A DNA stretch of 42,867 nucleotides from Myxococcales bacterium (GTDB lineage Bacteria > Myxococcota_A > Polyangia > Polyangiales > Polyangiaceae). The stretch covers positions 1-42,867 of the forward strand of contig JAAFHV010000047.1 in assembly GCA_013297655.1 (NCBI GenBank), in the 5' to 3' direction. Made by a program: the position numbers and the translations under genes. Below, piece by piece: positions 143 to 22,966 of the stretch (position 1 is its first letter; every line of letters begins with the position of its first letter). The notes beneath the pieces are model-generated. The model ran no database searches. It was not told where the DNA came from and saw nothing but the letters and a program-made list of their open reading frames with translations.

Positions 143-1531
143 CTACGCGTCTCGCGCGGCCTCCCGCACCAACTCACCCCTTCGCCACCGGCAACCGAAC
201 CTCCAAACGCGTACCCGACGACCGCTTCGTCGCCCCGCGACGCGCGCCTCGCCGCGATGCCGCTTCGCCACGTGGGCGACGAGCGCGAGCCCGATGCCGT
301 GGCCCGGCGATCCGTGGGCGCCGTGGCCTCGCGCAAAGGGCTCGAACACCTTGCGGCGCTCCGATTCGGCGATTCCAGGCCCGTCGTCCTCGATCGAAAG
401 AATGGCAATCTCGTTGGCACCCGTAACGTCAATCGATACCTGATTACCGAACTTGAGCGCGTTCGATACCCCGTTCGAGATCGCGATCCCCAACGCCGAA
501 GCGTCGCCACGAACGAGCACGTCCGGGCCGGGCTCCACCGTCACACGCGCGCGCTCGTCGTCGGTAAGGTCGAGCACGGTCTCCTCCACCACGTCGCGAA
601 GCGAAACAAGCTCGCGCGCGTCGTCTTGTGTCTCCGGGCTCGCGAAGAGCAGGAGCCGCTCGGTCACGTCTTGAAGGTGACGCACCTTCTGAAGCGCACG
701 CTCGAGGGAAACCGCCGGACGCGTGGAGGCGACGCCGTCCGCCTCCTCCGACGCCTCCTCCGAGGCACCCAGCGTGCTCTCGGCCAAAAGCTCCAGCTCC
801 GCACGCACGATCGTGAGCGGGGTCCGGAGCTCGTGCGCCGCGTTGACCGCGAAGCGCGACGAATGCGCGAGCGCGTCCATCATTCGCGTGTAGAGCAGCT
901 CGACCGCGGTCCGGAGCGCGTCTACCTCGGCCACCCCTTCCCGTCTCCCGAGCTGCTCGAGCGCCGTGGGCGAAGCTTTGGGGACCGACTCGAGTCGAAG
1001 CTCGGCGATACCACCCTGGAGCCGCACGAGCGGCGCGAGCGCACGCCGCGCGAGCACCGCGCCCAAGCCCCAAGCCACTAGCGCCGCAAACGACGCGGCG
1101 GCGAGCGCGGCCAACGCGAATAGGCCCGTCCTCGACTCCGCACGAGTGCCGGCGGAGACCCGCGCGCCGCTCGCGCTCGAGACGGTGCACACACGAAATG
1201 CCTCCCGCGTGGAGCAGCCCAGCTCGCCGCGCGTGCCATGCAGCTCGCCAGCAAGCGACTCGCCGCTCTGCGCCACTACGCGAAAACGAATCCCCAATGA
1301 CGTGGCCTCGTCTTCTTCGTCCCGAATCACGGTCGCGATCGGCGGGTGCGTGGGCAGATCCAGCTCGCGCGCCACTTCGCCCGCCGCCGCTTCCAGGCTC
1401 CGATCGGTCGCGCTCGTAAGCAGCGCGTCGGCGAAGGCACATGCCACGATCGACGCGACCGCCGCCGCGATCGCGGCAGAGACGAGGCTCGCGAGCGAGA
1501 CCCGCGCCGTGAGGCTCGTGGGCCGCTTCAG
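143..1531 (-). CDS. Sensor histidine kinase (HAMP-HisKA-HATPase), 3' end apparently frameshifted
   Basis: Membrane sensor kinase of a two-component pair with the regulator just upstream. Numbered from the proposed start: transmembrane segment about residues 12-38, a roughly 100-residue periplasmic region, second membrane segment about 135-160, HAMP linker, then HisKA with phospho-acceptor H233 in HELRTP. The HATPase domain has an N box (SNGVSNALKFG), G1 (DDGPGI) and G2 (GHGIGLALV). No ATG, GTG or TTG lies at the expected place. The best-placed codon is CTG at 1531, overlapping the regulator stop as CTGA; an upstream start deep inside the regulator gene is the alternative. After about position 225 the frame becomes Arg/Trp-rich and unlike a kinase end, whereas the neighbouring frame reads SSGTRLEVRLPVAKG and stops at 174, a typical kinase C-terminus. 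This suggests one missing base. Family confidence is high, ends are uncertain. Confidence 0.88.
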   Translation of the reverse strand: MKRPTSLTARVSLASLVSAAIAAAVASIVACAFADALLTSATDRSLEAAAGEVARELDLPTHPPIATVIRDEEDEATSLGIRFRVVAQSGESLAGELHGTRGELGCSTREAFRVCTVSSASGARVSAGTRAESRTGLFALAALAAASFAALVAWGLGAVLARRALAPLVRLQGGIAELRLESVPKASPTALEQLGRREGVAEVDALRTAVELLYTRMMDALAHSSRFAVNAAHELRTPLTIVRAELELLAESTLGASEEASEEADGVASTRPAVSLERALQKVRHLQDVTERLLLFASPETQDDARELVSLRDVVEETVLDLTDDERARVTVEPGPDVLVRGDASALGIAISNGVSNALKFGNQVSIDVTGANEIAILSIEDDGPGIAESERRKVFEPFARGHGAHGSPGHGIGLALVAHVAKRHRGEARVAGRRSGRRVRVWRFGCRWRRGELVREAARDA

Positions 1532-2205
1532 GGCTCTACCCCGAACGCATAACCCTCGTTGCGAATCGTGCGAATCACGTTCGGCCCCAGCTTGCTCCGC
1601 AGACGAGCCACGAGCACGTTCAGACTGCTCGTGTTCGACTCCGTCGCTTCGCCCCATACCTGATCGAGCAACGTGGTTCGGGTCACGAGCTGGCCGCTCC
1701 GAGCGACGAGAACCTCCAAAATCGCCCACTGGCGCGCGGTGATCGGCACTTCGACGTCGGCGCGGGTCGCGCGCCGCTTCGTGAAGTCGAGTGTGACCTC
1801 GCCCGCGACCTTCGGGCGCCCATAGACCGGCGCCGTGAGCGCTCCGCCCGCCCGCCGCCCCAACGCACGAACGCGGGCACGAAGCTCCGCTACCGCGAAC
1901 GGCTTGGGGAGGAAATCGTCGGCCCCAGCGTCCAAGCCTTCGACCCGCACCGCGACGTCGGTCTTCGCGGTGAGGAGCAAGATAGGAAACGTGAACCCCT
2001 CGCCGCGAAGTGCGCCGCAGAGCTCGAGCCCCGAGCCATCCGGAAGCGCAATATCGAGTAGGACGAGGTTCGGGGCACCATCAAGAAGGGCAATGCGCGC
2101 CGCCTTTACCGAGTCGGCCGTTTCGACGACGTGGCCGTCCGCGAGCAGCGCGCGGCGCACCACGCTCCGCACGTCGTCGTCGTCGTCCACGACCAAGATC
2201 CTCAT
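1528..2205 (-). CDS. OmpR/PhoB-family response regulator
   Basis: DNA-binding response regulator of 225 residues, the usual family length. The receiver domain (about 1-118) has the acidic cluster DDDDD at 7-11, phospho-acceptor D51 in LLDIALPDGSG, T79, and K101 in the KPF motif, so it should be phosphorylatable. A winged-helix domain follows (about 130-225), with the motifs SLNVLVARLRSKLG and IRTIRNEGYAF typical of OmpR-type effector domains. The ATG at 2205 has a weak G-rich ribosome-binding site. The stop overlaps the proposed CTG start of the histidine kinase, so the two are co-translated and very probably partners. The gene starts 93 bp after the TonB receptor gene in the same direction, so it may belong to or control the iron-type locus upstream; that is inference. 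Confidence 0.95.
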   Translation of the reverse strand: MRILVVDDDDDVRSVVRRALLADGHVVETADSVKAARIALLDGAPNLVLLDIALPDGSGLELCGALRGEGFTFPILLLTAKTDVAVRVEGLDAGADDFLPKPFAVAELRARVRALGRRAGGALTAPVYGRPKVAGEVTLDFTKRRATRADVEVPITARQWAILEVLVARSGQLVTRTTLLDQVWGEATESNTSSLNVLVARLRSKLGPNVIRTIRNEGYAFGVEP

Positions 2206-2298: not shown

Positions 2299-4656
2299 TC
2301 AGAACGTGGCCTTCACGCCGATCTGCACCCAGCGTGGCGCGTTCACCCGCGCGCCGTAGGGCCTCCGCCCCACGACGTTCGCGACCCCGTTCACGTTGCG
2401 AACGTTCGCGTACACCTTCAGCCACTTGAGCGGCGACACGTACGCGCCGAGATCGAGCCAGATTTGTTCGTCGGTCGCGATCGTCTCCGCGATCGGCGCG
2501 CTGCCAGCGATCTCACGCATCGGCGCGACGTAGTTGAACGCGGCAGAGAGGCCCACGTACTTGTGCTCCACCCCCGTCGTCAGGTTGAGCTGATGGCGCG
2601 GAATGTAAGGAATCTTGTCGCCGGCACGCACGTTTCCATAAATGGGATCGCCGGAGAGGAAGTCGCTCCGAAACTCGCCGTACGTAAGCGTGTAGGCTGC
2701 AGTCATCGGGATCTTCACCGGCCCGGCGGGGGCTTCGTACGTCGCGAATGCCTCTAGCCCGTACACGTGGGCAGTGCCGGCATCGAACTGACGGTCGAGC
2801 CCCACGTCGACGCAGCCGCTCGAGAGCGTGCAGATATCGGTGAGGTTCGAATAATCGTTGAAGAACCCTATCGCCTCGAAGCGCGCGCGACCGCGGGTGT
2901 AGCGCGCGCCCGCCTCGTAGTTCACGCTGTACTCGGGGCTCACCTCGCGGCCGCTACCGGGCGGCGGGGGGCTGAATCCGCGGTACGCGCCGCCGAGCAA
3001 ACCGAGCTGCTTCGTGAGCGCGTAGTACGCACCGACACCGGGCATGAGCGCGCCGGTGAACCCATTTTTCGCGCCGTTCGTGAGATAGTCCTCCGCGCGT
3101 GAGGCGATGAACTCGGCGCGCAGCCCCGGCGTCACGGTAAGTCGATTCCAGTTCATCGCGTCCGTCACGTGGAGCGCGAGCGCGTAGGTCCGCGCGAAGT
3201 TCCGTGTCGTCACGATTTCGGGCTCGTTCGCGGAGACGAGCACACCCGATTGCATCAGGTATCCCTGCTCCGTATGGAGACGATTGATTTCGTCGTAGTG
3301 GAGCCGCGCCCCGACCTCGATCGCGTGCGTGACCGGCCCCGTGCGCCCCGTCGTGGTGAGCACGCTTTGAATGCCCTGGCTCACGAAGCTGCGGTTGTTC
3401 GGCCCCACGTAGAGCGTGTCGGAGCCGGTTCCACTCGAGTCGATCGTGCCTTTGAGCACCGCATAGTAGCCGGCATTCGCGGGGTCGTCGGGGCTCGCGA
3501 GCACGTCCGACGCGGAGGCGCGACCGAGGCGATTGAGCTTCGACCACGTGCGCTGGTAGTCGAACCGGTACGCCTGTGTCTTCAGCGTGTACGAGGTCTC
3601 CGCGCCCTCCATCGTGTGCGAGAGCACGATCCCGGTCCGATGGTTCTTCATCTGATCGAGCTGGCTCGCGGCATAGCGCCGATACGGATCTTCGCGAAAA
3701 TCGGCGAGCGTCTGCCCGAGGTACGTCTCGTTCGAGACCTCGTCGGCATACGAGAGCTTGAGCCCGAACGTGTGCTTCGTGGAGGCGGTCGGGTCGACGA
3801 CGTAATTGGCTTTCACCATCCAGTCGTTGCGCGTAGAGCCCGTGTCGGCCCCGCTCGGCAGGTTGGCGAACCCGGTGTTCTGCAGGCGCACCCCCTCGAT
3901 GAGCACTCCCCAATGCTCGTTGCCCACTCCCGCGTACGCGTGCGCCTTGCCGTAGCCGTATGCGCCGAGGGAGAGATCGACCATCGCCGAAGGTTTGTTC
4001 GGGATTTGACGGGTCAGAAAATCGATCGCCCCGCCGACCGTCTGCGGGCCATACGCGATCGCAGAAGGCCCTTTCGCGACGCGCACTTGCGTCATTCGCG
4101 CCATAAGCGGGAAGTAGTACGCCGCGGGCGCAGAGTACGGCGCAGGCCCAAAGAGGATGCCGTCCTCCATGAGAGTGAGCTTCTTGCTGCGGTCAGGGTT
4201 TCCGCCACGAATACCGATGTTCGGGCGGAGGCCGACGCCGTCCTCGCCGCGCATGTACACGCCGGGAACCTGGAGCAATACCGCGGTCGGATCGTCGTAC
4301 GAGAAGCGCTCGAGCTGTTGCTTGCGGAGGACCTGAACCGAGCCCGCGCTCCTCGCGAGGGGGTTGCCGGAGATGACCACGTCCTCGACCACGGGCGGCG
4401 GCTTCGTGGGGGCGCTCGCGGGCGATGGCGAGGGGTCGGCCGCTGCAGGAGGCGGCTTCGTCGGGTCGCTGGCGGGCGCCGGGACGCTGGACGACGCGGG
4501 CTCTGCGGGGGCGACCGCGGGGGGCGGAGGATCGCTCTGCCCGCTCTGCCCGCTGGCGGGGAGCGGCTCACCTTGCGCCGCAGCGATGGATGAGAGCGAG
4601 CAGACGACGAGCCCCACGGAGAGGGCGGTTTTGCGCGATCGAGACGAGTTCTGCAT
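2299..4656 (-). CDS. TonB-dependent outer-membrane receptor, FecA-like
   Basis: A 785-residue outer-membrane transporter. A signal peptide (about 1-27, ending AAAQ) is followed by an unusually long Pro/Ala/Ser-rich linker (about 28-88) and a TonB-box-like stretch EDVVISG (91-97). The plug domain (about 100-220) contains LRPNIGIRGGNPDRS and LTLMEDGI, which resemble FecA-type ferric siderophore receptors. The beta-barrel runs to a terminal Phe (VQIGVKATF), the usual outer-membrane insertion signature. The substrate cannot be read from sequence; a ferric chelate is the likeliest by family and by the imelysin-like neighbour. The gene lies 30 bp downstream of the HTTM gene and in the same direction, so the two are probably cotranscribed. 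No Fur-box-like sequence was recognised near it. Confidence 0.93.
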   Translation of the reverse strand: MQNSSRSRKTALSVGLVVCSLSSIAAAQGEPLPASGQSGQSDPPPPAVAPAEPASSSVPAPASDPTKPPPAAADPSPSPASAPTKPPPVVEDVVISGNPLARSAGSVQVLRKQQLERFSYDDPTAVLLQVPGVYMRGEDGVGLRPNIGIRGGNPDRSKKLTLMEDGILFGPAPYSAPAAYYFPLMARMTQVRVAKGPSAIAYGPQTVGGAIDFLTRQIPNKPSAMVDLSLGAYGYGKAHAYAGVGNEHWGVLIEGVRLQNTGFANLPSGADTGSTRNDWMVKANYVVDPTASTKHTFGLKLSYADEVSNETYLGQTLADFREDPYRRYAASQLDQMKNHRTGIVLSHTMEGAETSYTLKTQAYRFDYQRTWSKLNRLGRASASDVLASPDDPANAGYYAVLKGTIDSSGTGSDTLYVGPNNRSFVSQGIQSVLTTTGRTGPVTHAIEVGARLHYDEINRLHTEQGYLMQSGVLVSANEPEIVTTRNFARTYALALHVTDAMNWNRLTVTPGLRAEFIASRAEDYLTNGAKNGFTGALMPGVGAYYALTKQLGLLGGAYRGFSPPPPGSGREVSPEYSVNYEAGARYTRGRARFEAIGFFNDYSNLTDICTLSSGCVDVGLDRQFDAGTAHVYGLEAFATYEAPAGPVKIPMTAAYTLTYGEFRSDFLSGDPIYGNVRAGDKIPYIPRHQLNLTTGVEHKYVGLSAAFNYVAPMREIAGSAPIAETIATDEQIWLDLGAYVSPLKWLKVYANVRNVNGVANVVGRRPYGARVNAPRWVQIGVKATF

Positions 4657-4686
4657 GACAGCGAGGAATCTTGAGGACGATGAAAC

Positions 4687-6174
4687 CTAGAGGACGGGCC
4701 TCGTCGGCGGTGGTGGCCCCACGGGGCCGGGCATGACGTACGACGCAGGGCCAACTCCGTCTTCAACGGTCATCAAGTCGACCGCGGGATCGACGAGCGG
4801 GACGCCCGGACGCGCGTTGAGAGACACGAGCGCCTCGGCGTAAACGGCGACCTCGCCTTCGCGCGCGGCGAAATCCTCGCCGATCGTGTGGGCGAGCTGG
4901 AGGACGAGGTCGGGCTGGCTCGCCATCTCGTTCTCCTGGTACGGGGTGAGGTACTTTCGTGGGCTCACGATCCACGTCTTGCCGGTGGTCTTGCTCTTCA
5001 CGAAGAAGGTCACCGAGCCCCCCTTCGCGCGGACCATCACGCGCCACGAGTACCGCATGCCCTGCTCGTGCCAGAGCACGTTTCCGCCGTAAAAAAAGCC
5101 GCGGATCGGCATGAGCACCTGCAGCGCGACGTACACGACACCGAGGCCGAGGGCGACGCGGCCTGGCAACGACGCGCGCACTCTCGGCACCGGGATCGCG
5201 CGCGCCGTCACGTCTTCGTTCACGGCGACCTTCTCGCGCCCGAGCCCGCCGCGCAGACGACGCAGTAACGCGCGCGGCCACGACGCATCGAAGAACACGA
5301 GCGCCCCGAGGCTCATGATCACGGGAAACATCCCGATGTCGAAGAGCATCCGAGTGAGCACGTGAAACGCGATGACAACGCCATAAGCGAAGGGCCGTGT
5401 CCGACGAAACGACAGCCAACCCACGATCGTCGCGTCGAAGAGGAACCCGGCCCAGCTCATCGCGAGCGGCACGTGTGGCACCGTGAAGAGCCGGCCGAGC
5501 AGCGGAATGTCCGTGCGCGCGCCGAGCCAAATGCCGAGCGGCTGTCCGTGAAGGAGCCAATCGGGCTGCGCCTTCGCGAGAGCCGCGAACACGTACACGA
5601 CGCCAATTTGCACGCGGAAAAGCGCATGCCACGCGAACGGAACGGTGCTCGTGTCGCGCGGCTCCGGCTTGCCGAAACGCACGCGCAGCTTTCTTGCGAG
5701 CCACGCGTCGACCGACCACGCCTTCGCCGCGGGGGACACCGCGAGCAGCCACGCGAGGAGGCCCGCGAGGTAGTAGTGGTTCAGGTAGGTCGACACGTCG
5801 ACGAGCTGCACGTACGTGAGGCCCGCGGCGAAGAGCGCCGCCGTCACCCGAAACGCGAAGCCCGCCGCGACCGCGATGCCGAGCGCCGAGAGCGCCCAAA
5901 AGAGCGCGTGCATGTGGGTCCGCGAGAGCGGCGCGACCCAGGAAAAACCCCAGTAGTGGAAGCGATAGCGCGGCGAGACGAGCAGCTCGTCGACCCACCC
6001 GTGGGCGAGGAAGCGCTGCATCGAGACGCCGAGGGCGAGGCCGAAGAGCACTCGAAAGGCCGCGAGCCACGCCACGTCGGTGCGCGCGAGCAGCCACGCC
6101 TCGGCGCGCTCCACGATGCGCGAGGGGGTGCTCACGTGGCCTGTTCCCGCGCCTGCCGTGTCAGTCGGTGTCAC
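4687..6174 (-). CDS. HTTM-domain membrane protein, vitamin-K-dependent gamma-carboxylase-like
   Basis: A 495-residue integral membrane protein of the HTTM family, which includes vitamin-K-dependent gamma-glutamyl carboxylase. Several membrane segments are visible between about residues 35 and 360, followed by a soluble C-terminal part rich in beta-type sequence (about 365-495). The motif NHYYL (H133) matches the NNHSYL region of animal carboxylase around its H160. AALAKAQPDW (K201) aligns with AGVKKLDADW, where animal K218 is the catalytic base. Both key residues are therefore retained, which suggests an active carboxylase or epoxidase-type enzyme rather than a dead homologue. Its substrate is unknown. 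The ATG at 6174 lies 14 nt inside the end of the imelysin gene, so translation is coupled, and the TonB receptor follows after 30 bp. The family call is firm; activity is inference. Confidence 0.88.
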   Translation of the reverse strand: MTPTDTAGAGTGHVSTPSRIVERAEAWLLARTDVAWLAAFRVLFGLALGVSMQRFLAHGWVDELLVSPRYRFHYWGFSWVAPLSRTHMHALFWALSALGIAVAAGFAFRVTAALFAAGLTYVQLVDVSTYLNHYYLAGLLAWLLAVSPAAKAWSVDAWLARKLRVRFGKPEPRDTSTVPFAWHALFRVQIGVVYVFAALAKAQPDWLLHGQPLGIWLGARTDIPLLGRLFTVPHVPLAMSWAGFLFDATIVGWLSFRRTRPFAYGVVIAFHVLTRMLFDIGMFPVIMSLGALVFFDASWPRALLRRLRGGLGREKVAVNEDVTARAIPVPRVRASLPGRVALGLGVVYVALQVLMPIRGFFYGGNVLWHEQGMRYSWRVMVRAKGGSVTFFVKSKTTGKTWIVSPRKYLTPYQENEMASQPDLVLQLAHTIGEDFAAREGEVAVYAEALVSLNARPGVPLVDPAVDLMTVEDGVGPASYVMPGPVGPPPPTRPVL

Positions 6175-7444
6175 TGGCCGCGCTCGCGGGGAGCTTCAAG
6201 TTGAGCGGGCTCGCCGAGCCGAAGAGGTTCGTTTTCAGTAGGTTCGTGAGCAGGCGCAGCGTTTGGTAGAGAGCGTTGAACTGGGCTGGGGTCGCCTGCG
6301 AAAAGGGAGGAAACGCGTCCGCCGCGGCTTGGGCAGCGGCGAGCTTCGCGGCGATATCGGCGGCGAGCGCTCCGTTCCCGCTCGCGACGAGCCAGTCGTC
6401 GAACCCGACCCCGGCGCCGTCCGGCCCGCACCCGGCGTAGAGCGACCGAAACGCGCGGAGGTTTGCGCGAATCGCCTCGATGTCGACCTGCGCGAACGGG
6501 GTCTCCGGGTTCGGCGAGGTGGTGCTGAAGCCGGCGTACGCGGCGAGCTTGAGGTCTTTCACCTCCACCTCGGGGTAGAGCATCGACCAAGCGACCACGT
6601 TCAGCGTCTCTTGCTCCGAGCCGTAGCCGTCGAACGCGAGGAGCTTCGTTTTGTAGTCTTCGCCGTCCTTCGTGTACACTTTGCGGATCGCCTGCGCGCG
6701 GACGAGGGTGTCGGCCGACACCGCAGTGAGGTAGTCGCGCTTCGCGGCGCCGAGCGCTTCGGGACCGAGCGCGGACCACGCTTGCCCCGCGCTCGACGCG
6801 GGAGAACATGCGGTGTCGCTCCCGGCGAAAAAAAGCATGTATTCGATCGCAAAGAGACCACGACCGCTCGGGAAGACGAAATCGAAGGAGTCTTTGTAAC
6901 CCTTCAGCGCGATCTGCGTCTCGACCTGGCAGCGGCTCGTGTCTGGCCACGAGTGCACGAACGAGCGGAGCCCGCGCCCGTGGTAGGTGTCGTTCGCTTT
7001 GTCCGCGACCGGCCCGAACTCGAAGAGGGTCATGGTCGACCACGCGTCCATCGCGCGGCGGTACGCGAGCTGCGCGAGGGCGCGGCTCTCGCTCGTCTTC
7101 TGCGCGACGTCGCGATCGACTGTCGTCCGCAGCACGCTCACCGCGTTCTCGAGGGTGCAGGCGTGAAACGCGGCACAGTCGACGGCGGCACCGAGGAGAC
7201 CTTGTTTGGTGAACGCGGCGGTCGACGACGGCGCCGCTCCGCACGCGCGCGGCCCGTCGGGGAGGCCGGCCGAGTCGGGGACGACGCCCGCATCGAACGG
7301 TGGCGGGAGCTGCTCGGGAGTGGTCGCGGTGCCCTTCGCCGCGATGCCTGGACGAGGATCCTCGGTCGCGCGGCAGGCCGCGATCGCGCCGAGCGCGAGA
7401 ACCAGAAGCCCAGCCACGTGAGCGAAACGGCGAGTGTGCAGCAT
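6161..7444 (-). CDS. Imelysin-family lipoprotein (iron-regulated type)
   Basis: A 427-residue lipoprotein. The start ATG at 7444 was chosen because it opens directly onto a signal peptide with lipobox IAAC (C24), preceded by GAGAAG; a longer reading frame upstream lacks these features. The mature part is alpha-helical. It carries AMDAWSTMTLFEFGPV and the GRGLFAIEYMLFFAG region, characteristic of imelysin/IrpA proteins, which bind or handle iron at the cell surface or in the periplasm. The family's proposed metal motif GxHxxE reads GLFAIE here, so the His is Phe (F198) while the Glu (E201) remains, as in degenerate imelysin-like proteins. Internal Cys pairs are present. It is followed by the overlapping HTTM gene and the TonB receptor, supporting a joint role in metal uptake. 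The precise function is unknown. Confidence 0.9.
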   Translation of the reverse strand: MLHTRRFAHVAGLLVLALGAIAACRATEDPRPGIAAKGTATTPEQLPPPFDAGVVPDSAGLPDGPRACGAAPSSTAAFTKQGLLGAAVDCAAFHACTLENAVSVLRTTVDRDVAQKTSESRALAQLAYRRAMDAWSTMTLFEFGPVADKANDTYHGRGLRSFVHSWPDTSRCQVETQIALKGYKDSFDFVFPSGRGLFAIEYMLFFAGSDTACSPASSAGQAWSALGPEALGAAKRDYLTAVSADTLVRAQAIRKVYTKDGEDYKTKLLAFDGYGSEQETLNVVAWSMLYPEVEVKDLKLAAYAGFSTTSPNPETPFAQVDIEAIRANLRAFRSLYAGCGPDGAGVGFDDWLVASGNGALAADIAAKLAAAQAAADAFPPFSQATPAQFNALYQTLRLLTNLLKTNLFGSASPLNLKLPASAASDTD

Positions 7445-7467
7445 GGGGGTCTTCTCGAGGCACCATA

Positions 7468-7492
7468 CCCTCGGAGCGAGGGCGTTTTTATA
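7468..7492 (-). promoter_or_regulatory. Candidate promoter and hairpin/operator for the imelysin-HTTM-TonB operon
   Basis: On the minus strand a TATAAA hexamer (7487-7492) is a good -10 element, with no convincing -35. Immediately downstream, where transcription would begin, is a perfect inverted repeat CCCTCG-CTC-CGAGGG in minus-strand order (7468-7482). It could be an operator or a 5'-end mRNA hairpin. The same hairpin plus T-run resembles a terminator for plus-strand transcription, but no plus-strand gene ends there. The rest of the 261-bp gap (7445-7705) holds the terminator described separately and nothing else recognised. Confidence 0.4.
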
Positions 7493-7661
7493 CGAAGTTC
7501 GCGACAACCTGGTGTTCGGGTACCCCCCTCGGAGCCGTCGCGCGCGAGCCATGATTCATGAAGGCTGCACACGTCGCCGTCAACCTCTCGCGCGTCGACA
7601 CGCCACGTCGCAGAGGCGGACGCGCGAGGTACTTCGCGCCGCCCATCACCCGGGTCCGTCG

Positions 7662-7693
7662 AGAGGCGGCGCGCGACACGAGCCGCCGCCTCT
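7662..7693 (-). terminator. Stem-loop after the delta-60 lipoprotein gene
   Basis: A perfect 10-bp stem (7662-7671 with 7684-7693, arm AGAGGCGGCG on the plus strand) with a 12-nt loop lies 13 bp beyond the stop of the lipoprotein gene. There is no clear U-tract, so it may slow or end transcription, or protect the mRNA 3' end, rather than act as a canonical intrinsic terminator. Confidence 0.5.
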
Positions 7694-7705
7694 GGAGCCG
7701 AACGT

Positions 7706-9250
7706 TCAGTTGCCGACCTTGAGCGTCACGACGAACGAGCTCGGATCGGCCGTCGTGCTCTGCGACGACGCGGCGATACGCTTGCCGTCCGGCGAGACCG
7801 CGACCTTGAAGAAGGGAAAGCCGTGGGTGGGGTACACTTTGTAGCCCTCGCCGCCGAACGAGCCCTTGTCGAGCTTGCCGTTTTTGTCGAAGAGGAACAC
7901 CGCCGCCTTGTCGTCCCAGCAGCCGACTTGAACGGTGCGGTCGTCCGAGAGGATCGCGAGGTCGCGGCCGTTGTCGCGGAAGGGCCGCGCGCCGGTGCCC
8001 GCTCCCGTCTTGCCCTCGCTCTGGATCGCCCACGCGCCGAGGCGACCGAACGTCGGATCCACCCCATCGCGGTTGACACCGAACGTGAGAAGGTCGTTCT
8101 CCTGCGTGGCCACGTCGAAGTTCGACTTGCCGTAGCCGGTCGTCACGTAGCGCCCGCCCGACTGCTTCACGACCGCATACGCCTCGGCGGCGCCTTGTGC
8201 GGAGACGAACGGGTTGAACTTGGTTTGCCCCGGCGACGCTGCGGCGGACGTGGTCCCGAACCCGAACGTGGAGTCGGGAGTGCCATCGGGCTTGAGGCGA
8301 ATCAGCACGACGTTGATGCTCGGACCGACTCCGAAGTTCGCATACCCAGCGGACACGATCGTTCCGTCGGCCTCGACGATCCCGCGGCGCGCGTCGTCGG
8401 GGAGCCCCTTACCGTCCGCGTCGGCCCAGAAGGGCTTTCCGCTGTTGAACGCCGGATCGTGCGAGAAGTCGCTGGCGAGCACGCGGGCTACCCAGCGGTC
8501 GTTGTCGACCCGCTGCGTGCCACCGACGGCGACCTTGGCCGGCGCGCCGAACGCGAAGACCACAATCTTTTCCGCCGCCGCGTTGCTCTTGTCGAGCGCG
8601 ATTCCCCACGATTGATACTGCGGAGTCTGCGGTACGCCCGCGTCGTTCGTGACGGGCCAATCGGCAAATTCGCTGTCCTGCCAGCCGAGAACGAGGGCCT
8701 GCGGCGTGCCGAACGTGTAGGTCGTGCCCGTCTTGGTGAGCTTGGCGAGCCACACCTTCCCGCCCGCGGCAGCTTGAACCACGAAGCTCCCGTCCGCGAG
8801 CTCGACGAGGCCGTACGAGGTCTCGTCGCCATCGATCGGGACCGTGATCGCACCGTCGGTGCCGAAGGTCTTGTCGACCTTGTTCGTGGTCTTGTCGATG
8901 CGCCACACCGCGAGCTGGCGGTCGCCACCGACGAGCTTCGCGCCGGACATGTAAAGGTTTCCGTCCGACGCCCAGAGGAGTCCATACGGGTTCAGCGCGC
9001 CCGAAACGAGGCCTTCCGACTCGGCCACGACCGGGACCGCAGGCGCGGCATCCGGGGTCGCGTCGACCGGCGGAGGGGCCGCGTCGGTCGGGACCGTCGT
9101 CGGCACGGTGTTCGTCGGCGGGACGGTGCCGGTCGGCACGGTGCCGCTGTCCGGCGTCGCGGTCGTGTCATCACTGCACGCGGCGACGGACGTGGTCGCG
9201 GCGACGAGCGCCAACAAACCAGAAGCAAGAATGTGCGAACGGTAGCGCAT
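7706..9250 (-). CDS. Delta-60 repeat lipoprotein
   Basis: A 514-residue secreted lipoprotein. The ATG at 9250 is preferred over one 9 bp upstream because GGGAG lies about 10 nt before it. The signal peptide ends in lipobox VAAC (C25). A Thr/Pro/Ala/Val-rich linker (about 30-75) leads to a beta-propeller-like domain made of delta-60 repeats, each marked by D-x-(T/S/A)-F followed by a Gly-rich turn: DKTFGTDG, DPAFNSG, DSTFGFG, DPTFGRLG and a diverged DKGSFGGEG. Delta-60 repeats are known from myxobacterial and delta-proteobacterial surface proteins and have no defined ligand. The protein lies upstream of the imelysin operon in the same direction with a 261-bp gap. It may be part of the same locus but probably has its own promoter. 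Confidence 0.85.
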   Translation of the reverse strand: MRYRSHILASGLLALVAATTSVAACSDDTTATPDSGTVPTGTVPPTNTVPTTVPTDAAPPPVDATPDAAPAVPVVAESEGLVSGALNPYGLLWASDGNLYMSGAKLVGGDRQLAVWRIDKTTNKVDKTFGTDGAITVPIDGDETSYGLVELADGSFVVQAAAGGKVWLAKLTKTGTTYTFGTPQALVLGWQDSEFADWPVTNDAGVPQTPQYQSWGIALDKSNAAAEKIVVFAFGAPAKVAVGGTQRVDNDRWVARVLASDFSHDPAFNSGKPFWADADGKGLPDDARRGIVEADGTIVSAGYANFGVGPSINVVLIRLKPDGTPDSTFGFGTTSAAASPGQTKFNPFVSAQGAAEAYAVVKQSGGRYVTTGYGKSNFDVATQENDLLTFGVNRDGVDPTFGRLGAWAIQSEGKTGAGTGARPFRDNGRDLAILSDDRTVQVGCWDDKAAVFLFDKNGKLDKGSFGGEGYKVYPTHGFPFFKVAVSPDGKRIAASSQSTTADPSSFVVTLKVGN

Positions 9251-9301
9251 GTGAGTCATTCTCCCGTGGTGGCGCGCCTCGTTCGCGCGCCTCTCGACTT
9301 C

Positions 9302-9367
9302 GGTATAGCGCCGCACCCAAGCAAGTGAAAGTCAATTTCGACAAGAGGTGGAACTGCACGAAATGAC
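9302..9367. promoter_or_regulatory. Divergent intergenic region with candidate promoter and inverted repeat
   Basis: This region lies between the delta-60 lipoprotein gene (minus) and the YkgJ-like gene (plus). On the minus strand TATACC (9302-9307) with TTTCAC 17 nt upstream is a weak sigma70-type candidate about 50 nt before the lipoprotein start. An imperfect inverted repeat, GTCAATTTCG (9331-9340) against CGAAATGAC (9359-9367), sits upstream and could bind a regulator of either gene. Neither element is proven. Confidence 0.3.
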
Positions 9368-9420: not shown

Positions 9421-9816
9421 ATGAGCGAACCACTCGCCTCGGAGGGCGGTGAGGGCTGCCTGAGATGCGGCGCGTGTTGCTTCTCGAACCTCGCGACGTA
9501 CGTGCCGGTACGGGGGGACGACTACGCGCGGCTCGGTGAGCGGGCAGAGGAGCTCGTGTTCTTTACCGACAACCGCGCGTACCTCGTGATGCACGGCGGG
9601 CACTGCGCGGCGCTCGCGATCACGACGGACGAGGACGGCGCGCGTTTCACCTGCCTCGTCTACGCGACACGCCCGGCGACGTGCCGCGAGCTCCACCGCG
9701 GATCGCCCGCCTGTGAGGGTGAAATCGCAGAAAAAGGTGCACGACCGCGACGTGCACACGACGCGTTGGTCGCGCTCCGAGTACGCTCCCCCCGCGACGA
9801 CAAGGACCCCACGTGA
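9421..9816 (+). CDS. YkgJ-family cysteine-cluster protein
   Basis: A 131-residue soluble protein of the YkgJ (UPF0153-type) family, whose members bind zinc or iron through a cysteine cluster. The N-terminal motif CLRCGACC (C13, C16, C19, C20) and later Cys in HCAAL, FTCLVY and ATCREL are the family's conserved ligands, and YATRPATCREL is the typical C-terminal signature. The ATG at 9421 follows GGGGAGA at good spacing. The stop codon overlaps the GTG start of the RNA helicase gene by 4 nt (GTGA), so the two are co-translated, although no functional link between the families is known to me. Confidence 0.88.
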   Translation: MSEPLASEGGEGCLRCGACCFSNLATYVPVRGDDYARLGERAEELVFFTDNRAYLVMHGGHCAALAITTDEDGARFTCLVYATRPATCRELHRGSPACEGEIAEKGARPRRAHDALVALRVRSPRDDKDPT

Positions 9817-12380
9817 CTACCCTCTACGATTCTCTCGCCAAGCTCGACGAACGCTCCCCGGACGAAGCGCTGCTCGACACGTTCGTCGCGCACGTGGAGG
9901 GCCAAGGCCTCTCGCTCTACCCCGCTCAAGAAGAGGCGATCCTCGAGCTCCTCTCAGACCGGCACGTGGTCCTCGCGACGCCGACGGGCTCGGGCAAGAG
10001 CCTCGTCGCGCTGTTCGCGCACTTCCTCGCGCTCGTGCGGGGCCAGCGGTCGATCTACACCGCGCCGATCAAGGCGCTCGCGAACGAAAAGTTCTTCGCC
10101 CTCTCGCGCGAATTCGGGAAAGACCGGGTCGGGCTCTTGACCGGCGACGCGACGATCAACCCTGGCGCGCCGATCTTGTGCGCGACGGCAGAGATCCTCG
10201 CGAGCATGGCCCTCCGCGAAGGCGATCGCGCCGATCTCGGGCACGTCGTGATGGACGAGTTTCACTACTACTCCGACAAGGACCGCGGCATCGCGTGGCA
10301 AGTGCCGCTCCTCGAGCTGCCCCACGTGCGCTTCTTGCTCATGTCGGCCACCCTCGGCGACACCACGTTCTTCGAGCGCGACCTCGAGCGTCGTACCGGC
10401 GCGAAGGTCACGACCGTACGTTCGGACGAGCGGCCAGTGCCGCTTCACTTCGAGTACCGCGACACGCCCCTCCACGAGACCCTGGAGAAGCTCGTGCGCT
10501 CCGATCGTGCGCCGATCTACCTCGTGAGCTTCTCGCAGCGCGGCGCGACCGAAGAAGCGCAGAACCTCATGAGCGTGGATTTTTGCACGAAGGAAGAGAA
10601 GAAGAAGATCCACGAGGCCTGTCTCGGCATGCGCTTCGACAGCCCCTTCGGCAAAGACATGCAGCGCTACGTGCGCCACGGCATCGGTGTGCACCACGCG
10701 GGCCTGCTCCCGAAGTACCGGCTCTTGGTCGAGAAGCTCGCGCAAAAAGGGCTCCTCAAGATCATCTCCGGCACCGACACCCTCGGCGTCGGGGTGAACG
10801 TCCCCATTCGCACCGTCGTCTTCACCAAGCTCTGCAAGTACGACGGCGAGAAGACCGCGATCCTCACCGTGCGCGACTTCAAACAGATCGCCGGGCGCGC
10901 CGGTCGTCGTGGCTTCGACACGGAGGGCACCGTGGTCGCGCAAGCGCCCGAGCACGTGATCGAGAATCTGCGCCTCGAGGCCAAAGCCGCCGGCGACCCG
11001 AAAAAAATGAAGAAGCTCGTTCGCCGGAAGCCACCGGAGAAGGGCTACGTCCCGTGGGACGCGAGCACCTTCGAGAAGCTCCGCACGAGCCAACCCGAGG
11101 CGCTCGTGTCGCGCTTCCAAGTGTCGCACGGCATGCTCCTCGACGTGCTCACCCGCGACGGCGGCGGCTGCATGGCGATGGCGCGGCTCGTGAAAAAGAG
11201 CCACGAGCGCCTCCCGGAGAAGCGCAAAATCGCGCGCCACGCGGCTCAGCTCTACACGTCGCTCCTCGACGCGCAGGTGCTCGTGCTCGAGCCGCGCGAC
11301 GACGGCGAGCCGGAGAACTTCGGTCGCAAAGGCGCCTGGCCCATGCTCGCGCAAGATCTCCAGCTCGACTTCGCGCTGAACCAGCCGCTCTCGCTCTACC
11401 TCCTCGAGACCCTCCCGAAGCTCGACGCTTCGTCGCCGACGCACGCCCTCGACGTGCTCACGATCGTGGAGTCGATCTGCGAGAACCCGGAGCAGATCCT
11501 CATGCGCCAGCTCGATCGCGCCAAAGAGCTGAAGATGGCCGAGATGAAGATGGCCGGGATCCCGTTCGAGGAGCGCATCGAAGAGCTCGAGAAGGTGGAG
11601 CTCGATCCGCCGCTGAGGCAAGAGTCGTACACCACGTTCAACGCCTTTCGCGCCCTCCACCCGTGGGTGATCTCGCACAACGTGAAGCCGAAGTGCATCG
11701 CGCGCGAGATGATCGAAGAGGTCGCCTCGTTCAACGAATACGTGAAGGAATACGGGCTCGAACGAGTCGAGGGGCTCCTCCTTCGGTACTTGAGCGAGGT
11801 CTACAAAACGATGGTCCAGTCGGTGCCCGAGGCGATGAAGAACGACGCCATCGACGACGTCATCGCGTACATCGGCGGCATGGTTCGTCAGGCCGACTCG
11901 AGCCTCCTCGACGAGTGGGAGAAGATGCGCGATCCGGCCTACGTGGACGCTCTCGTGCGTCGCGACGAGGACGCGCTCCTCGAGGCCACGCGCGCGCACG
12001 AAGGCCCCCTCGACGTCACCCGCGACGAGGCCGCGTTCACCGCCCTCGTCCGCAACGCGGCGTTCGCTGTCGTGCGCGCGCTCGCCCGCGGCGATCTCGC
12101 CTTCGCGAAGGAGCTCTGCCAAAACCCCGACCTCGACGAAGCGGCGCTCTCGAAAGCGCTCGCCGCGATCGCGGAGCACCACGGCCGTGTCCGCGAGGAC
12201 GCCGAAGCGCGAAGCCCGAAGCACCTCACGATCCAAAAGGACGAGCACGTCTGGTCGATCGAACAAGGGCTCGTCGGCGACGACGGCGCGACCGGGTTCG
12301 TCCTCCGCGCGAAGATCGATCTCGAGGGCTCCCGGCTCGAGGGGCGAGCCGTGCTTCGGGTCACGAGCCTCGGAGAGTAA
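9813..12380 (+). CDS. Ski2/Mtr4-like DExH-box RNA helicase with DUF3516-type C-terminus
   Basis: An 855-residue ATP-dependent RNA helicase. Walker A is TPTGSGKS (about 56-63), the DExH box is DEFH (148-151), motif III is SAT (178-180), and motif VI is QIAGRAGRRG (358-367). GTDTLGVGVN marks the second RecA lobe. This set and the long C-terminal half (about 380-855, helical, with Lys/Glu-rich stretches) match Ski2-like bacterial helicases carrying a DUF3516 region. Likely role: unwinding structured RNA during RNA processing or decay. The GTG start at 9813 overlaps the YkgJ-like gene by 4 nt. The protein appears complete and its motifs intact. It has no signal peptide or membrane segment, so it is cytoplasmic. 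Confidence 0.92.
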   Translation: MTTLYDSLAKLDERSPDEALLDTFVAHVEGQGLSLYPAQEEAILELLSDRHVVLATPTGSGKSLVALFAHFLALVRGQRSIYTAPIKALANEKFFALSREFGKDRVGLLTGDATINPGAPILCATAEILASMALREGDRADLGHVVMDEFHYYSDKDRGIAWQVPLLELPHVRFLLMSATLGDTTFFERDLERRTGAKVTTVRSDERPVPLHFEYRDTPLHETLEKLVRSDRAPIYLVSFSQRGATEEAQNLMSVDFCTKEEKKKIHEACLGMRFDSPFGKDMQRYVRHGIGVHHAGLLPKYRLLVEKLAQKGLLKIISGTDTLGVGVNVPIRTVVFTKLCKYDGEKTAILTVRDFKQIAGRAGRRGFDTEGTVVAQAPEHVIENLRLEAKAAGDPKKMKKLVRRKPPEKGYVPWDASTFEKLRTSQPEALVSRFQVSHGMLLDVLTRDGGGCMAMARLVKKSHERLPEKRKIARHAAQLYTSLLDAQVLVLEPRDDGEPENFGRKGAWPMLAQDLQLDFALNQPLSLYLLETLPKLDASSPTHALDVLTIVESICENPEQILMRQLDRAKELKMAEMKMAGIPFEERIEELEKVELDPPLRQESYTTFNAFRALHPWVISHNVKPKCIAREMIEEVASFNEYVKEYGLERVEGLLLRYLSEVYKTMVQSVPEAMKNDAIDDVIAYIGGMVRQADSSLLDEWEKMRDPAYVDALVRRDEDALLEATRAHEGPLDVTRDEAAFTALVRNAAFAVVRALARGDLAFAKELCQNPDLDEAALSKALAAIAEHHGRVREDAEARSPKHLTIQKDEHVWSIEQGLVGDDGATGFVLRAKIDLEGSRLEGRAVLRVTSLGE

Positions 12381-21435: not shown

Positions 21436-21975
21436 TTACGTCACCGCATCGGGTGGGAGGTGCGAGGTCTCGTTGTAGGAGACGACACGTAGACGGGTGT
21501 CGCGAACGAAGATTTTCGTGATCCCGCAGTGATTCGAGACGAGCTTCGTCCAGGTGCGCGCGGGAACTCCGAGGGCCTTCGCGACGAGGTAACGAATCAG
21601 GTTGCCGTGGCAAACGAGGAGCTCCGACGTATCGCCGCGCGCAGGAGCGAAGAAGGTGGCGAAGACCTCGTCGAAGCGCTCGCGGTCGGCGGCAGCGCTC
21701 TTCGCGGTCACGCCGAGGGAGGTCACCTTGGTGGGCACGCCCTCGGCCAAGATGCCCACCACGACGGGCTTCACCTTCCATGGGCCGACGACCTCCGCGC
21801 ACGTCTCGCGCGCGCGTACGAGCGGGCTCGAGACGACGCGATCGAAGCGCTCGCGCCGAAGCGCGACCTCCGAGTAACGCGCCTGCCGCTGACCGAGCAA
21901 CGTGAGGCCCGGATCGGGACCGTCGTCGAGCCGATACTCGCCGTGCCGCAGGAGCACCACCGTGCGAAGCCCCAT
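21436..21975 (-). CDS. PGAM5-like histidine phosphatase
   Basis: A 179-residue member of the histidine phosphatase superfamily. LLRHGEYR (R10, H11, the phospho-acceptor His) and VCHGNLIRYL (H123) provide the active site, and SSPLVRARET is the conserved middle motif. HGNLIRYLVAKALGVP, then NHCGIT, resembles the PGAM5 subgroup, which dephosphorylates proteins rather than phosphoglycerate. The ATG at 21975 is chosen because it places the RHG motif at the usual distance from the N-terminus; an upstream start would add a non-conserved leader. It is divergent from the KirBac gene with 94 bp between starts. The substrate is unknown. Confidence 0.88.
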   Translation of the reverse strand: MGLRTVVLLRHGEYRLDDGPDPGLTLLGQRQARYSEVALRRERFDRVVSSPLVRARETCAEVVGPWKVKPVVVGILAEGVPTKVTSLGVTAKSAAADRERFDEVFATFFAPARGDTSELLVCHGNLIRYLVAKALGVPARTWTKLVSNHCGITKIFVRDTRLRVVSYNETSHLPPDAVT

Positions 21976-22069
21976 GCGTCGATGCTCGCCCACCTCTCGA
22001 CCGGTTGCACCCAAAACCTTCACGCAGGATTCGACCCGCCGGCGGGACGTTCACGTACGATCGGCCTCG

Positions 22070-22966
22070 ATGGCGGAGCGCACGATCAAGTTGGTCGACA
22101 ATTCCCAGCAGCGCGGGATGTCTCTCCGCATTCGTGGGCGCCCCTTCGAGCCGCACAAAGACCTCTACCACTACGTGCTGTCGGTCTCGTGGCTCGGCTT
22201 CTTCGTGATCGTGTTCCTGCTCTATGTCGCGGTCAACGTGCTCTTCGCCGCCACCTACCGCCTCGCCCCGGACTGCATCGCGGGGGTGCACGACTTCGAG
22301 GCGGCGTTTTACTTCAGCGTGCAAACCATGGCGACGATCGGCTACGGCACCTTCGCGCCCGCGACCCGCTTCGGCCACGTGCTCGTCACGTTCGAGGCGA
22401 TCGCCGGCGTCTTCGCGACCGCGATGGTGACGGGCCTCACGTTCGCCAAATTCGCCCGTCCGACGGCGCGCGTGATCTTCGCGAGCAAGGTCGTCATCGC
22501 GCCTCGCAACGGCGTACCGCACCTCATGTTCCGCGTCGCGAACGCGCGAAACAACACGGTGGTGGAGGCCCAGCTCCGCGTCACCGTGCTCGTCAACGAG
22601 AAGACGCGCGAGGGCGACCTCATGCGCAGACAGGTCGACGTCCCGCTCGTGCGTCCGCAGACGAGCCTCTTTGCGCTCTCGTGGACGGCGATGCACGAGA
22701 TCACGGAAAAAAGCCTGTTCTTCGGCCCCACCGCGCTCGACGATCTTCGCGCCAAGAACGCAGAGATTTTGCTCAGCTTGAGCGGCCTCGATGACACGAT
22801 CTCGCAGCCGATCCACGCCCGCTACCGCTACGCGATCGACGACGTGGTGCACGATCACAAGTTCAAGGACGTGATCTCCACCGACGAGCACGGCGGGCGC
22901 GTCCTCGACTACAGCGCGTTCCACGACGTCGTCGCCCTCGACGAGAGCTCGCCGCGCGATACCTGA
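22070..22966 (+). CDS. Inward-rectifier-type potassium channel (KirBac)
   Basis: A 298-residue inner-membrane potassium channel. There are two membrane segments (about 38-60 and 101-126) around a pore helix and the selectivity filter TIGYGTFAP (T89-P97). The following cytoplasmic beta-rich domain (about 130-290) has the Kir signature sequence RVANARNN and later FSL-type strands (LFALSWTAMHEI). Length and layout match KirBac proteins. The ATG at 22070 starts a short N-terminal region with RGRPFEPHKDLYHYVLSVSW, similar to the slide helix of KirBac. The longer open frame upstream is not conserved. It is a single-gene transcript divergent from the PGAM5-like gene. The physiological role, presumably membrane-potential or K+ control, is inferred. 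Confidence 0.93.
   Translation: MAERTIKLVDNSQQRGMSLRIRGRPFEPHKDLYHYVLSVSWLGFFVIVFLLYVAVNVLFAATYRLAPDCIAGVHDFEAAFYFSVQTMATIGYGTFAPATRFGHVLVTFEAIAGVFATAMVTGLTFAKFARPTARVIFASKVVIAPRNGVPHLMFRVANARNNTVVEAQLRVTVLVNEKTREGDLMRRQVDVPLVRPQTSLFALSWTAMHEITEKSLFFGPTALDDLRAKNAEILLSLSGLDDTISQPIHARYRYAIDDVVHDHKFKDVISTDEHGGRVLDYSAFHDVVALDESSPRDT

Follow-up and report, generated by a model that had tools for sequence, protein, structure and literature searches.

A putative iron-acquisition operon of Myxococcota joining an imelysin, a vitamin-K-carboxylase-like enzyme and a TonB receptor

Introduction

What does a membrane enzyme resembling the vitamin-K-dependent gamma-carboxylase GGCX, which in humans acts on clotting proteins, do between the gene of an imelysin-like lipoprotein and that of a TonB-dependent receptor? 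The question is raised by a four-gene locus at positions 2299 to 9250 of a 42,867-nucleotide stretch of DNA (the window; contig JAAFHV010000047.1) from a Myxococcales bacterium whose genome assembly (GCA_013297655.1) comprises 9.9 Mb in 546 contigs. An earlier note, made from the letters of the window, suggested that these genes share a function in iron handling and that the enzyme, described there as an HTTM protein, could modify a protein or ligand.

We conclude that the locus is a well-supported iron-acquisition operon. Imelysin iron operons are known; what is new here is a version of them that carries a GGCX-like enzyme or, in its place, a diiron hydroxylase. Both the GGCX type of the enzyme, with its lumenal domain, and the hydroxylase exchange had escaped the earlier note. 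As a whole, the best explanation that we can offer is a Fur-controlled iron operon whose GGCX-type enzyme oxidatively modifies the imelysin, a plausible proposal that we hold tentatively.

Results and Discussion

The four genes of the locus

All four genes lie on the minus strand in genuine open reading frames (ORFs), and the ORFs together with Pfam matches confirm the gene order first described. The presumed operon starts with a delta-60 (DUF5122) lipoprotein gene (7706..9250, ORF 7706-9316), with a likely ATG start at 9250 and lipobox VAAC; its product matches PF17164 over the cut-off and falls just below that of TIGR02608 (75.0, cut-off 76.5). After a gap of 153 or 261 bp follows the imelysin-like lipoprotein gene (6161..7444, ORF 6161-7552; PF09375, E 1e-22), for which ATG 7444 is the likely start and Cys24 the lipobox cysteine. 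The GGCX-like enzyme is encoded third (4687..6135, ORF 4687-6174) and the FecA-like TonB receptor last (2299..4656; PF07715 and PF00593). The 30 bp junction between the last two genes stands as first reported, whereas the reported 14-nt overlap between the imelysin and enzyme genes requires the first GTG (6174) as start; the plausible alternative, GTG 6135, leaves a 25-nt gap. The four genes are probably transcribed as one operon.

A carboxylase-type enzyme with its lumenal domain

The third gene product matches both PF05090 (E 3.5e-69) and the VKGC lumenal domain PF22777 (E 4e-43), and because both match we assign it by sequence to the GGCX type rather than to bare HTTM proteins. Among solved structures its sole relative is human GGCX (E 5e-25), and an AlphaFold 2 (AF2) model of the enzyme (mean predicted local distance difference test, pLDDT, 90.6) resembles GGCX structure 9wfc with a template modelling (TM) score of 0.77 by query length. 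Active-site roles in GGCX have been assigned to Lys218, His160, Asn159, Tyr395, Asn158 and Met401, the Asn159-His160 pair gripping the Glu side chain (PMC12589487). In an alignment to human GGCX and bacterial copies, the window enzyme keeps the equivalents of Lys218, the catalytic base (codon 5572..5574, minus strand), and of Asn159-His160 (codons 5776..5781, minus strand).

Ninety-nine bacterial copies were aligned, a few genomes being counted twice and one copy being a fragment that lacks the active-site columns. Among the other 98, Lys218 is conserved in 98, Asn159 in 96 and His160 in 94, and none of the copies departing at the active site (L130-L133, L158) adjoins an imelysin. On these grounds the window enzyme is probably catalytically active. 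Bacterial GGCX-like proteins have a precedent in the Leptospira GGCX orthologue, which reportedly has altered activity; we know of no native substrate for any bacterial GGCX-like gene. Four copies away from imelysins (L130, L131, L132 and L158) retain Lys218 and have lost His160, and because of this loss they may have another activity.

The gene neighbourhood is kept across phyla

We analysed two samples: 140 genomes of the window's phylum, its own genome included, and a GTDB scan that confirmed at least 560 relatives of the enzyme, of which the best 80 loci were analysed. Because Bacteroidota genomes are unevenly sampled, this set of 80 is weighted towards close relatives of the query. Within the phylum, PF22777 gave 49 matches in 34 of the 140 genomes and PF09375 gave 90 matches in 53. 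Thirty-one of the 49 enzyme matches lie directly downstream of a same-strand imelysin match, and an imelysin match occurs in 32/34 genomes with the enzyme compared to 21/106 without it (p 3e-15 by Fisher's test, with no correction for kinship).

In the GTDB loci, an imelysin lies within 5 kb of the enzyme in 74 of 80 (a contig end truncates three of the six loci without one, L054, L055 and L099) and directly upstream of it in 69. A TonB receptor follows the enzyme directly in 56, and both flanks are in place in 51. These loci come from Myxococcota, Bacteroidetes, Fodinibius, Rhodothermaceae, Chloroflexi, Trueperaceae, Bdellovibrionaceae and one Ectothiorhodospiraceae bin; the nearest named ones among the matches listed are from Labilithrix and Sorangium. 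A gene order kept in several phyla supports the shared function of imelysin, enzyme and receptor suggested earlier, and it is very likely that the operon products work together. The lack of conservation that the earlier note had named as a refuting outcome was not what we observed. A fusion of GGCX-like enzyme and TonB receptor was considered and rejected, as no single frame held both. In some loci the enzyme had at first been masked by a long receptor ORF that overlaps it in a different reading frame; it was then found in all 80.

Two layouts recur. In layout A, to which the window belongs, DUF4856 or a delta-60 protein is followed by imelysin, GGCX-like enzyme and TonB receptor. In layout B the order is imelysin, di-haem oxidoreductase, imelysin and GGCX-like enzyme, as a rule with no TonB receptor; in three Chloroflexi loci of this layout the enzyme is on the opposite strand. 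The window's genome has a second GGCX-like locus, of layout B, on another contig (C532; L121 6603-13184). DUF4856 occurs in 44 of the 80 loci, a delta-60 relative in 12 (upstream and same-strand in four) and a di-haem oxidoreductase in 10; the window's delta-60 gene occupies the position that DUF4856 has in most relatives. The imelysin is the only partner shared by the two layouts, and for that reason it is our favoured target of the enzyme.

Layout B also bears on a different role for the enzyme, in which it would pass menaquinol electrons to the ferric iron of the imelysin, as proposed for EfeB-type and di-haem oxidoreductases elsewhere. The di-haem oxidoreductase of this layout fits such redox chemistry, but the GGCX-like enzyme persists in the loci that have it, so that one does not simply stand in for the other. 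We also know of no iron-reducing chemistry of GGCX, which counts further against this role, and we regard it as improbable.

Evidence for a role in iron acquisition

The receptor consists of Plug and barrel in Pfam, with no N-terminal signalling domain found. FecA is its best NCBIfam match and, at E up to 1e-8, its only solved relative (1pnz, E 5e-23). The likeness lies in plug and barrel; at 113.7 bits against a cut-off of 1100 the window receptor is far below the FecA model, and it differs as well in the missing signalling domain.

A Fur-box-like site at 9325..9341 (strand not assigned), ~75 bp before ATG 9250, matches TTGAAAATGATTTTCAA at 13 of 17 positions. We searched with five consensus strings of E. 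coli, general and Flavobacteria type, which may not be the operator of the window's phylum. This site is the window's best place for two of them, shares or comes close to first place for the other three, and ranks at 0.01 among random 300-bp slices. Predicted Fur-type sites within 300 bp upstream that rank with the best 5% of random slices were found at 55 of 67 loci, the window's included, compared to 10-17 of 67 in five runs with shuffled consensus strings; a cruder version of the analysis gave 51/84.

Riemerella anatipestifer has a matching set with consecutive gene numbers, RAYM_09779-09794, which encodes a TonB receptor, a vitamin K-dependent gamma-carboxylase, an imelysin lipoprotein and a hypothetical protein. 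These genes are listed as induced by iron limitation (printed ratios 2.11, 2.64, 3.07 and 2.41) and as putatively Fur-regulated (PMC5609570). This set differs from the window locus in belonging to another phylum and in its unnamed fourth protein, probably DUF4856 judging by Bacteroidota loci. The ten most MliR-dependent transcripts reported for Bizionia argentinensis, the species of GTDB locus L084, include those of an imelysin and a siderophore receptor, which may be the genes of that locus. For strain JUB59 of this species a gene deletion has been described (PMC9478572). A related imelysin/di-haem operon of Leptospira is described as responding to dipyridyl. Together, the predicted Fur-type sites and the iron-responsive Riemerella genes support the iron handling that the earlier note had read from the imelysin and FecA families.

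Known imelysin operons are related to this locus and distinct from it. The Fur-regulated operons PA4370-PA4373 and VC1264-1266 (PMC3143127) share the GxxxxE imelysin and iron regulation; the window locus has neither their first, GxHxxE imelysin nor their di-haem oxidoreductase, and has instead a delta-60 protein, a GGCX-like enzyme and a TonB receptor. None of the terms carboxylase, vitamin, receptor, HTTM and TonB appears in the main text of that paper, whose Fig. 8 of gene contexts may show such a neighbourhood. EfeUOB likewise uses an imelysin-type protein in iron uptake, but no EfeU-like or EfeB-like gene was found among the nine window gene products scanned around the locus. In the literature searched, which covered texts and not figures, nothing joins an imelysin with HTTM or with a fatty acid hydroxylase, nothing concerns DUF4856, and imelysin and gamma-carboxylase occur together in the Riemerella study only (PMC5609570).

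The imelysin and its acidic C-terminus

The window imelysin carries the motif GLFAIE, which is GxxxxE without the His of GxHxxE, and by this motif it belongs to the IPPA family described by Xu et al. 2011 (PMC3143127). Its AF2 model (pLDDT 87.9) matches structures 7xrx and 3pf0. The motif His is absent from all aligned imelysins of layout A (65/65), of layout B next to the enzyme (7/7) and of hydroxylase-linked loci (17/17), and present in all 8 first imelysins of layout B.

In 45 aligned imelysins only four columns are invariant: P167, G338, D425 and D427. As the last two are the third-last and last residues, the invariant part includes an acidic C-terminus, which reads SDTD in the window (codons 6164..6175, minus strand) and GDND, DADGD or DTDGD in relatives, and which is absent from DUF4856 and delta-60 proteins. 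This tail was found in 102/103 imelysins adjacent to a GGCX-like enzyme, 19/19 adjacent to a hydroxylase and 5/44 closed frames adjacent to neither, where the lone miss is L046, whose final stretch is probably out of frame, and some genomes are counted twice (e.g. L043, L139).

A diiron hydroxylase takes the place of the enzyme in relatives

The 140-genome sample holds 53 tail-bearing imelysins. The partner in the enzyme's slot is GGCX-like in 30, a diiron fatty acid hydroxylase (FA_hydroxylase) in 20 and neither in three, two of which (L142 and L176) are at a contig end. Nineteen of the hydroxylases adjoin the imelysin and one lies beyond the receptor; nine hydroxylase frames were confirmed by Pfam (PF04116) and the others were identified by their resemblance to one of these nine. 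No tail-bearing imelysin locus has both enzymes in one operon, L158 having a weak GGCX-like stretch on the opposite strand. A hydroxylase relative is likewise absent from all 80 GGCX-like loci. The exchange is documented in the window's phylum only, and the window's own genome has, besides its GGCX-like loci, an imelysin and FA_hydroxylase locus (C35, L122 4582-6876). In a quick tree of 100 imelysins, drawn randomly within groups from 166 rows and with 36 of 96 inner branches open, nine changes of slot type are needed, and the starred branches force at least three for the hydroxylase label.

In 11 genomes of the phylum, hydroxylase and TonB receptor share one open frame (L137, L146, L147, L148, L150, L151, L153, L154, L155, L157 and L159; for example L148 2850-6017, minus strand). 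Pfam finds all three domains in five of six fused frames, the sixth being cut by a contig end, and a signal-peptide-like segment stands at most hydroxylase-receptor junctions. We know of no such architecture in the literature. At one hydroxylase-type locus, a gene for a TonB protein lies between imelysin and TonB receptor (L144 3912-4670, plus strand).

Known relatives of the diiron FA_hydroxylases act on lipids. The exchange therefore raises a serious rival to protein modification: both enzyme types may oxygenate a shared substrate that is small and membrane-soluble, either a quinone, a lipid or the imported chelate, and that is needed to release or transfer iron; this would make them interchangeable. 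The repeated swap (20/53 imelysins, nine tree changes) fits this view, as does the likely topology. The signal-like segment follows the last His motif in the fusions, so the hydroxylase active site should face the cytosol, while that of GGCX faces the lumen of the endoplasmic reticulum, equivalent to the periplasm here; active sites on opposite sides of the membrane would make a shared lipid-phase substrate a stronger rival still. Nor does any partner residue track the enzyme type. Against this stand the lumenal domain and the Glu-holding Asn159-His160 pair that imelysin-linked GGCX-like proteins retain, and no candidate small molecule is known. We consider action on a small molecule doubtful, if serious.

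Whichever the substrate, the hydroxylase exchange and receptor fusion point to an iron-uptake step that requires an O2-using membrane enzyme, a step absent from the iron-uptake models known to us.

A proposed mechanism and the evidence against it

Returning to the imelysin as target, we propose that the four genes would form one Fur-controlled operon for outer-membrane iron acquisition. Under iron shortage, the FecA-like TonB receptor would import a ferric chelate, and the delta-60 and GxxxxE imelysin lipoproteins would receive or hold periplasmic iron. The GGCX-type membrane enzyme, working with menaquinol, O2 and probably CO2, would oxidatively modify, most likely carboxylate, acidic side chains of the imelysin encoded next to it, which would make them a harder metal ligand. 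That the imelysin is the enzyme's target is a guess that we favour with some reserve. The chemistry in its specific form is unlikely as stated: gamma-carboxyglutamate or beta-carboxyaspartate made on the imelysin as a ferric-iron ligand, perhaps at its acidic C-terminus, with the diiron hydroxylase of relatives doing an equivalent job such as beta-hydroxylation. If true, this would be a bacterial protein carboxylation that has a native substrate and serves iron uptake. Bacterial GGCX-like genes are now linked to a single partner protein, a single type of regulator and a single process, which provides a candidate substrate for testing.

Several observations weigh against this proposal. GGCX-like and hydroxylase loci cannot be told apart by any Glu/Asp column of the imelysin, DUF4856 or receptor, and the earlier suggestion of a modified protein or ligand stays a hypothesis. 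The window enzyme resembles human GGCX in its HTTM and lumenal domains, predicted fold, Lys218, His160 and Asn159, but has 482 amino acids rather than 758 and no known Gla-domain substrate or propeptide. The equivalents of Lys217, Tyr395, Asn158 and Met401 are not retained; in the Glu pocket, Met stands at the Tyr395 position (Tyr in 36/99 copies) and Leu at that of Asn158, and the Cys99-Cys450 disulfide is impossible in a protein without Cys. For the quinone supply, two PF02621 matches in the window's genome indicate the futalosine menaquinone route and favour the proposal, whereas menB has no match over the cut-off there. VKOR, the vitamin K recycling partner, has one copy in that genome, but it is not enriched with the enzyme (20/34 genomes compared to 78/106 without it). 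The iron response of RAYM_09779-09794 remains in a fur mutant (PMC5609570).

The tail, too, is not confined to loci with either enzyme. IPPA itself (3pf0) bears the same kind of acidic C-terminus as the window imelysin, its last residues being disordered in the crystal (PMC3143127). So do four alphaproteobacterial imelysins (L201, L202, L203 and L210) where neither enzyme type is present and the next gene is DUF1513 in three cases and CorA in one. Since members without either enzyme have the tail, it marks the imelysin family, and we rejected it as an enzyme-specific tag or as proof of the substrate.

Lastly, 18 of the 49 enzyme matches in the phylum sample are unlinked to an imelysin, several being fragments or at contig ends, and copies standing without one among the 80 GTDB loci include L087, L093 and L109. 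Such copies agree with the idea that enzyme and imelysin are mere neighbours, kept together by common descent and iron regulation and unrelated in function. We judge that very improbable: the adjacency persists across phyla despite different flanks, and either enzyme type fills the slot in 50 of 53 phylum-sample cases. As a candidate common partner of the imelysin-less copies, no recurring family emerged from 17 neighbour proteins of 10 copies, a scan that excluded those of L127, L128 and L130; Fe-S domains stand beside two.

Two further GGCX-like loci were observed. At L133 (5729-13296, minus strand), the GGCX-like stretch adjoins an Fe-S protein that weakly matches the lumenal domain, together with an NQR2/RnfD-Nuo51-type protein and one with an FGE-sulfatase domain. 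On a plasmid of Paracoccus albus (L205 6923-8314, plus strand), a GGCX-like gene lies beside a DUF393 gene with no annotated imelysin nearby.

Neighbouring features in the window

OmpR-type two-component genes adjoin the locus at 143-2205 (minus strand). The earlier note described them as following it; the genes exist, but a two-component system lies beside only 1 of the 80 loci, short contigs included, and so is not a conserved part. The whole window contains neither a tRNA nor an above-threshold match to an RNA family. Divergent from the operon, at 9421-12377 (plus strand), the gene of a CxxCxxCC-domain protein overlaps that of a DUF3516 DEAD-box helicase. Farther along, at 21902-22963 (plus strand), the window encodes an inward-rectifier potassium channel of the bacterial Kir type (PF01007, PF17655).

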